Source of the DNA: Nocardioides sp.
Lineage (GTDB): Bacteria; Actinomycetota; Actinomycetes; Propionibacteriales; Nocardioidaceae
Assembly: GCA_025936915.1 (NCBI GenBank)
Contig: JAICSK010000003.1
Coordinates: 1-41,151, forward strand
Direction: 5' to 3'
Length of the DNA stretch: 41,151 bases
The notes under the pieces were generated by a model. The model made no database searches. It saw only the letters and a program-made list of their open reading frames with translations, and was not told where the DNA came from. Both the position numbers and the translations under genes were made by a program. Positions 11,231 to 12,817 of this stretch are shown piece after piece (positions within the stretch are counted from its first letter, which is position 1; every line of letters starts with the position of its first letter).

Positions 11231-12817
11231 GTGAGCTCGTCGTCGCCGGAGGCGGATGTCGCAGACCTGCAAGGTTCGGCCAAGGCACTCCTCGACGCCG
11301 TCATGGCCATCTCGTCCGATCTCGATCTCCACAACGTGCTCACTCGCATCGTCGAATCGGCGACCAGGCTCACCGACGCGCGGTACGGCGCCCTGGGCGT
11401 CGTGGGCGCGGAGAGCTACCTGGTGGAGTTCGTGACCACCGGCATCGACGATGAGACGCGCAGGAAGATCGGTGACCTCCCCCATGGTCGTGGGATCCTC
11501 GGCCTGTTGATCACCGACCCGCGACCGATCCGGTTGAGGGATCTCGCCGACCATCCCGCTTCCTACGGATTCCCTCCCCACCATCCGCCCATGGGGTCGT
11601 TCCTGGGCGTTCCGGTGCGCATCCGGGGAACGGTCTTCGGCAACTTGTACCTCACCGAGAAGAACGACGGCGGAGAGTTCACCGAGACCGACGAGCAGCT
11701 GGTGGTCGCCCTCGCCGGTGTGGCCGGCCTCCTGATCGAGAATGCCCGGGCGTACGGACTCAGCGAACGCCGACGCGCCTGGCTGGAGGCCGCCGCGGTC
11801 CTGCCGGACTCCTTGCAGCCGCCCATCGACTGGGAGGCCAGCCTGACGCGCATCGCGTCCGCGGCGCGGCTGGCGGGCCGCGCGCGGGCGATCGCGGTGG
11901 TCGACGACGAGGCGCTCCGCATGCTCGCGATCGCCTGCGAGCCGGACGAGGAGGACGAGTTCCGGCGTGGCCTGGACGAGCTGCGACCGCACCTCGTCGA
12001 CCTCGAGATCCTGGACCCCGTCGACGTGCCGACGGGTTCACTGGTCGCCACCGTGGTCCCGTTGAGTACCCAGGTCGCGAAGGGCGGCCTGCTGGTCGCG
12101 TTCCACGAGGCTGCGGACCTCCGTCGCCGGGACTTCGACGACCGCGACCTCTTGCGCAGCTTCACCGACTTCGCGGCACTCACGCTGGACCGTGGTCAGG
12201 CGATCTCCGAGCGCGAGGAGCTGGCCGTCATGTCCGACCGGGAGCGGATCGCCCGAGACCTCCATGACGTCGTGATCCAGCGTCTGTTCGCCACCGGGAT
12301 GCAGCTCCAGGCGGCCAGCATGCGGGCCGTGAAGGACGATGTACGCGACCTGGTCCGACGATCGGCGGAGGAGCTCGACGCGACCATCAGGGATGTGCGC
12401 GCGACCATCTTCGAGCTCCAGATGCCGTCCTCGGACTCCGTGCGACGGGAGCTGCGAGCCCTGGTGCGTGAGTACGGCCGGGTCCTGGGCTTCCTGCCGG
12501 AGCTCCGGATCAGGGGACCGGTGGACACGGCGTTGACCGAACAGATGCGCGAGTCCCTGCTCAAGGTGGCACGCGAGGCGCTGTCCAACGTGTCGCGGCA
12601 CGCACAGGCCACCCGCGTCGAGGTCGAGGCCAGCGTGGGCGACGGGCGGTTCACTCTCACGGTCGACGACGACGGGATCGGGCTCACCGACGCAGGTGCG
12701 CGAAGTGGGCTCGAGAACGCCGGTGCCCGGGCCGGCGCGCTCGGGGGTGAGTTCGAGCTCGGCGAGAGCCCCTCGGGCGGTGTGCGGCTGCGCTGGAGCG
12801 TGCCCCTGTCGCGCTGA
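11231..12817 (+). CDS. dosS: DosS/DosT-like GAF-GAF histidine kinase, probable haem gas sensor
   Basis: About 528 residues: GAF-A (~28-172), GAF-B (~190-325), a HisKA_3 dimerization helix with [19 protein letters not shown] (phospho-His H345), and a HATPase ([19 protein letters not shown]). GAF-A aligns closely with mycobacterial DosS/DosT as I remember them: [20 protein letters not shown] puts H118 at the haem-ligand position (DosS His149), and GNLYLTEK puts Y140 at Tyr171. At the DosS Glu87 position there is G56 (YGALGV), as in DosT. It should autophosphorylate under low oxygen and signal to the DosR-like regulator encoded convergently. I chose GTG 11231, preceded by a possible CACAAT -10; an in-frame GTG at 11213 is an alternative. 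The ORF track start at 9335 is spurious. Confidence 0.92.

Follow-up and report, generated by a model that had tools for sequence, protein, structure and literature searches.

The closest described counterparts of the sensor kinase considered here are DosT (2VZW) and DosS/DevS (2W3D, 4YNR, 4YOF) of Mycobacterium tuberculosis. DosS has the same domain architecture as the kinase and, like it, the haem His149 and the Tyr171; DosT shares with the kinase the His and Tyr, a DosR-type partner and Gly at the position of DosS Glu87. It is Glu87 that, in the model of Cho and colleagues, narrows the haem channel, DosS being oxidized in air, whereas with the Gly of DosT the oxy form can be stable; the substitutions E87A/E87G in DosS and G85E in DosT had the effects expected from this model, and stable O2 holding was reported for E87G and E87A DosS and for native DosT (PMC4082495). 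According to a review, the channel work gave no kinetics, and the model is disputed, a stable oxy-complex of DosS itself having been found by other groups (PMC4082495).

DosS/DosT-type sensors are already known outside the mycobacteria, and the kinase is one more member. In Streptomyces coelicolor, OsdK-OsdR (SCO0203-SCO0204, also DevSR) is likewise a non-mycobacterial DosS/DosT-DosR system, set in an island that, like the one described below, contains universal stress protein (USP), nitrate reductase, nitrate transporter and pyridoxamine oxidase genes (PMC5069765, PMC4766573). Of the 18 residues with which DosT senses oxygen, 15 are conserved in this system; in vitro, OsdK phosphorylates OsdR, and both low O2 and an NO donor elicit a response of osdR and its island (PMC5069765). 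PolS-PolR of Microlunatus phosphovorus is a further actinobacterial pair of a DevS-like kinase (38% to DevS) and a DevR-like response regulator (76%), but with a proposed role in polyphosphate metabolism (PMC6754071).

The window, i.e. the whole stretch of 41,151 nucleotides of Nocardioides sp. that was analysed, contains the kinase gene within an island of stress and low-oxygen genes (table 1). The kinase frame (11231-12817, + strand) is open and encodes 528 amino acids; the GTG at 11231 is a plausible start, the reading frame stays open far upstream of it, and no clear ribosome-binding site was seen before it. Pfam recognizes GAF (31-170), HisKA_3 (337-400, with H345 as the phospho-acceptor) and HATPase_c (442-527) domains. 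GAF-B has no Pfam match in the kinase, but the full-length AlphaFold2 model (pLDDT 89.1) contains a second alpha/beta domain at about residues 191-325, in the place expected for it, which from the order of its secondary-structure elements only appears to be GAF-B-like. The architecture is that of DosS, DosT and OsdK, with GAF-A and the GAF-B-like region followed by HisKA_3 and HATPase_c, and G56, H118, Y140, H345, N453 and D480 are invariant among 45 homologues of the kinase.

Table 1. Features of the kinase island and candidate regulatory elements in the window.
Feature	Coordinates	Strand	Basis or remark
Molybdopterin oxidoreductase, putatively NarG-like	193..3849	-	Molybdopterin 9e-63; NarG assignment inferred
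MFS transporter, putatively NarK-like	3852..5099	-	MFS_1 2e-41
Degenerate DosR/OsdR-box-like candidate GGGACCTTGGTCAT	5170..5183	+	upstream of NarK-like gene
Tandem universal stress protein	5285..6192	-	start approximate
Candidate element ATGACCTTGGGCAT, ATGACCTTGGGCA type	6248..6261	+	between divergent USP genes
Second candidate CTGACCAGGGTCCA, CCAGGGTC type	about 6451-6464		between divergent USP genes
Tandem universal stress protein	6523..7358	+	
Pyridoxamine 5'-phosphate oxidase-like protein	7446..7886	+	start chosen = second Met of ORF
Twin-CBS-domain protein	7891..8493	+	
GNAT domain fused to ADP-forming acyl-CoA ligase	8490..11201	+	directly upstream of kinase
DosS/DosT-type sensor histidine kinase	11231..12817	+	528 aa; Pfam and PDB sequence matches
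Predicted haem domain GAF-A (residues 31-176; G56, H118, Y140)	11321..11758	+	phmmer, AlphaFold2 fold search
DosR/DevR-type response regulator, tail to tail with kinase	12852..13514	-	3C3W E=2.7e-67
Twin-CBS-domain protein	13695..14114	-	
Universal stress protein	14101..14588	-	
Candidate element ATGACCTTGGGCAC, ATGACCTTGGGCA type	14644..14657	+	upstream of USP-CBS operon
Further CCAGGGTC-type candidates	14806-14819 and 14829-14839		upstream of USP-CBS operon

Among PDB sequences, the top phmmer match of the GAF-A domain is that of DosT (2VZW, E=9.8e-53, 64% identity), followed by DosS GAF-A (2Y8H to 2W3D, 1.5e-49 to 1.8e-48, about 57% identity). The alignment with both proteins is gap-free over 141-149 residues and gives a constant offset of 31 from the kinase to DosS numbering, by which G56 corresponds to E87 of DosS and G85 of DosT, H118 to H149 and H147, and Y140 to Y171 and Y169, respectively; the identity of the three kinase residues was checked by script on the translation. 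A preliminary description of the locus, made from the sequence alone, had named the same three residues, the haem-ligand His, the distal Tyr and the Gly in place of Glu87, and was correct in each case. It had also proposed a structure-based comparison with DosS and DosT, which was carried out on an AlphaFold2 model of GAF-A (pLDDT 83.8): in a fold search of the PDB the first 17 places are all taken by DosS or DosT GAF-A chains, with 2VZW at 1.2 Å rmsd and 64% identity over 141 columns, and the E-value of the next GAF domain is poorer by some eight to nine orders of magnitude. The likeness to DosS/DosT is far beyond chance.

Seven GAF-A positions separate DosS from DosT (E87G, H89R, D90G, H97E, V108R, L118R and T169N; PMC4082495), and at these the kinase has G, V, G, E, R, R and N, six of the seven being of the DosT type. 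Judged by these residues, the resemblance to DosT is real and broader than G56 alone. The exception is V58, which is neither the His89 of DosS nor the Arg found at this position (R87) in DosT, so that the kinase has a Gly-Val pair where DosS has Glu87-His89. DosT differs also in gene order, its gene being unlinked to that of the response regulator, whereas the kinase gene is convergent with it.

How much weight the Gly can bear depends on its distribution in the family. In a survey of 163 different GAF-A domains from genomes of the phylum and class, in which weak matches were deliberately included, position 87 (DosS numbering) is Gly in 154, Ala in six and Glu in none; His is found at position 149 in 160 and Tyr at position 171 in 155, only a few family members being without one or the other. 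A contig search with the kinase protein alone returned three Streptomyces relatives and three unrelated kinases, and a GAF-A relative (E <= 1e-15) is present in 224 of the 297 sampled genomes of the class. Because the 163 domains had been ranked mostly by similarity to the kinase, a second search was carried out with DosS as the query inside the one genus with relatives of DosS and DosT, which was taken to be Mycobacterium since its members include some with 80-89% identity to M. tuberculosis DosS; of the best 30 matches, 25 have Glu87 with His89 and five have Gly with Arg. On these residue counts, the family has Gly at position 87 by default. The residue thus does little to set the kinase apart and, since nearly all the family has it, its sharing with DosT is not evidence of descent from DosT. 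Among the haem sensor kinases of this widespread actinobacterial family, the type by which Mycobacterium senses low oxygen, the kinase is ordinary but well preserved; taken alone, it adds one more DosS/DosT-type sensor to those present in about three quarters of the genomes sampled from the class.

A tree of 64 GAF-A domains gives a direction to the change. Glu87 requires a single change (SH-aLRT 98), which falls inside the mycobacterial DosS branch; it is always paired with His89 (26/26) and confined to that branch (loci L237-L266). Arg89 is nearly restricted to the mycobacterial DosS/DosT family (18/19), and there it is the partner of Gly87, whose partner elsewhere is mostly Ile, Leu or Val, as in the kinase (residues 56-58, 11396-11404). 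DosS and DosT join in one mycobacterial clade (family f4), apart from the kinase, which lies within the clade of its own family f1 (SH-aLRT 98-99). With DosS and DosT grouping together, orthology of the kinase to DosT is rejected on the tree, and the ‘DosT-like’ G56 is, on the most economical reading, a shared ancestral state. The preliminary description of a DosT-like sensor outside the mycobacteria stands for the His, the Tyr, the Gly and the placement in a non-mycobacterial family, but neither makes Gly a distinctive mark nor identifies a DosT orthologue, and, with OsdK/DevS and PolS published, the occurrence outside the mycobacteria is not new.

A broader reading, which we put forward tentatively as one possible account, is that the Gly-type pocket would be ancestral for the actinobacterial family, and that the redox-type pocket would have arisen by a single later change, Glu87 with His89, in the mycobacterial DosS branch after the split of DosS and DosT. 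If so, and if residue 87 does set O2 stability, the family would originally have sensed O2, redox sensing would be an innovation of the mycobacteria, and the kinase would be a natural comparator for the ancestral state. A by-product of the comparison is the direction of change itself, from a Gly default to a linked, single-origin mycobacterial Glu87-His89 pair, by which the dispute on whether DosS senses gas or redox state becomes an evolutionary question, testable with non-mycobacterial proteins such as the kinase of the window.

The neighbourhood is also of the DosR type. The adjacent response regulator keeps D60 (D54 of DosR), T88 (T82), K110 (K104) and K185/K188/N189 (K179/K182/N183), among them the phospho-acceptor and the DNA-contact residues. 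In relatives' islands the kinase and response regulator genes are tail to tail in 14 of 18 cases, often with USP genes and a pyridoxamine oxidase gene, the latter preceding the kinase gene in about 10 of the 18; in S. coelicolor, by contrast, osdR-osdK form an operon. The kinase gene of the window is preceded, across a 29-bp gap, by the acyl-CoA ligase gene (8490-11201), in which the GNAT part is N-terminal; the same gene lies upstream of the kinase in one relative (L226), and the two genes are probably in one operon. The kinds of genes in the island (USP, nitrate reductase, nitrate transporter, pyridoxamine oxidase) match the published DosR/OsdR regulon (compared with PMC5069765), the MFS transporter being considered NarK-like from its position beside the nitrate reductase-like gene. 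The same genome contains a second DosR-type response regulator (L186, contig C125, 79% identical) and a second DosS/DosT-type kinase (L002, contig C286, 41%), which also has the Gly, His and Tyr and adjoins a USP gene, so that the pairing of the kinase with the adjacent regulator is not certain and cross-talk is possible.

Homology, residues, fold, partner gene and neighbourhood of the kinase are direct observations; for haem binding, phosphotransfer and the logic of an oxy form that is off and a deoxy form that is on, DosT and OsdK serve as models. By this analogy, the kinase probably senses gas through haem, being inactive with O2 and active at its loss, and would act through the adjacent DosR-type regulator, i.e. 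by the mechanism of the family. The protein would be cytoplasmic, with GAF-A holding haem b through H118, Y140 acting as the distal hydrogen-bond donor and position 56 presenting no acidic side chain. O2 bound to the ferrous haem would hold the kinase off; as O2 falls, the deoxy form would autophosphorylate H345, and the state of the kinase may also depend on NO or CO. The phosphate would pass from H345 to D60 of the regulator, which would turn on the island with its USPs, CBS proteins, nitrate reductase and transporter, and acyl-CoA ligase. The autokinase activity of S. coelicolor DevS is reported to be decreased by NO (PMC4766573), so that the response of the kinase may differ in sign from that of M. 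tuberculosis DosT. Direct binding of O2, predicted in the preliminary description from G56, would be reasonable if the kinase binds haem and the Glu87 channel model holds.

That the haem is instead converted from the ferrous to the met form in air, the kinase reading the redox state as one group reports for DosS, is unlikely. Such a sensor would find some justification in the unsettled question of gas versus redox sensing by DosS itself and in the dependence of autoxidation on more than residue 87 (PMC4082495), and V58, without the His or Arg of the mycobacterial proteins, makes the pocket not identical to that of DosT; however, Gly at 56 and the DosT-type residues at six of the seven discriminating positions argue against it, as does the stable O2 holding reported for E87G/E87A DosS and native DosT (PMC4082495). 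The NarG-like and NarK-like genes in the island would suit a sensor mainly of NO that controls nitrate reduction, with O2 secondary, as proposed for S. coelicolor DevSR, which regulates narG2 and has its autokinase activity lowered by NO in vitro (PMC4766573). We consider this reading very unlikely, the island consisting mostly of USP and CBS genes and the distal Tyr being the residue described as O2-discriminating in DosS/DosT, although sensing of NO and of O2 are not exclusive. Finally, some family members have lost H149 or Y171, showing that loss happens, but it is extremely improbable that the kinase, while belonging to this family, has lost haem binding and senses another signal: all the strongly conserved pocket positions that were checked are kept, with the exception of site 199 (Leu for Ala), and a GAF domain without haem was rejected on these kept residues.

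As regards the promoters that the regulator of the preferred O2-responsive pathway might bind directly, only a tentative proposal can be made. In roughly half of the islands of the relatives, the response regulator gene is preceded by a DosR/OsdR-box-like GGGACCTTCGNCCC (sequences like GGGACCTTCGGCCC), and a sequence like GGGACCTTCGGCCC is also among the published OsdR sites (PMC5069765); a search for inverted repeats common to the response regulator promoters gave a count no better than in shuffles, though inspection by eye reveals DosR/OsdR-box-like sequences in about half. With a matrix built from the relatives' sites, four of the 20 best sites of the window fall in four chosen intergenic stretches (expected 0.5, p ~0.0015), none of them within the score range of the training sites, and no sequence of the window scores within the range of the relatives' canonical DosR boxes. 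The mycobacterial DosR palindrome, with spacers of 4, 5 or 6 bases, has fewer matches in the window than in shuffles, and a matrix of 25 published S. coelicolor OsdR sites has its best matches in the window inside genes, with only weak sites before the response regulator. The canonical box GGGACCWWSGDCCC occurs at three sites of the genome, on contigs C42 and C125, and at none in the window; no recognizable dormancy genes lie near the sites on C42.

Recurrent elements of the form GACCNNGG(T/G)C are found in the island's three promoter regions (at 5170, 6248, 6451, 14644, 14806 and 14829); they are possibly a local form of the DosR box and are not enriched genome-wide. A pattern chosen by eye after looking at the sequence, KGACCHWGGKCM, is found five times in the three promoters and once elsewhere in the window, with no enrichment in the genome as a whole (57 matches on both strands versus 67 for the reversed control). 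The DosR/OsdR-like sites of the window may at most be taken as a lead and not as a regulon. Two 36-base stretches (6225-6260 and 14621-14656), one in each of two USP promoter regions, are 81% identical and both end in CGGGATGACCTTGGGCA. Beyond the last of these regions, 14943-15545 encodes a short protein with hydrophobic stretches and no Pfam match, a homologue of which (48% identical) lies beside the kinase island of one relative (L218), and 16339-18639 encodes a thermolysin-type (M4) metallopeptidase that has a signal-like stretch at its N-terminus, a propeptide and a putative Ig domain.
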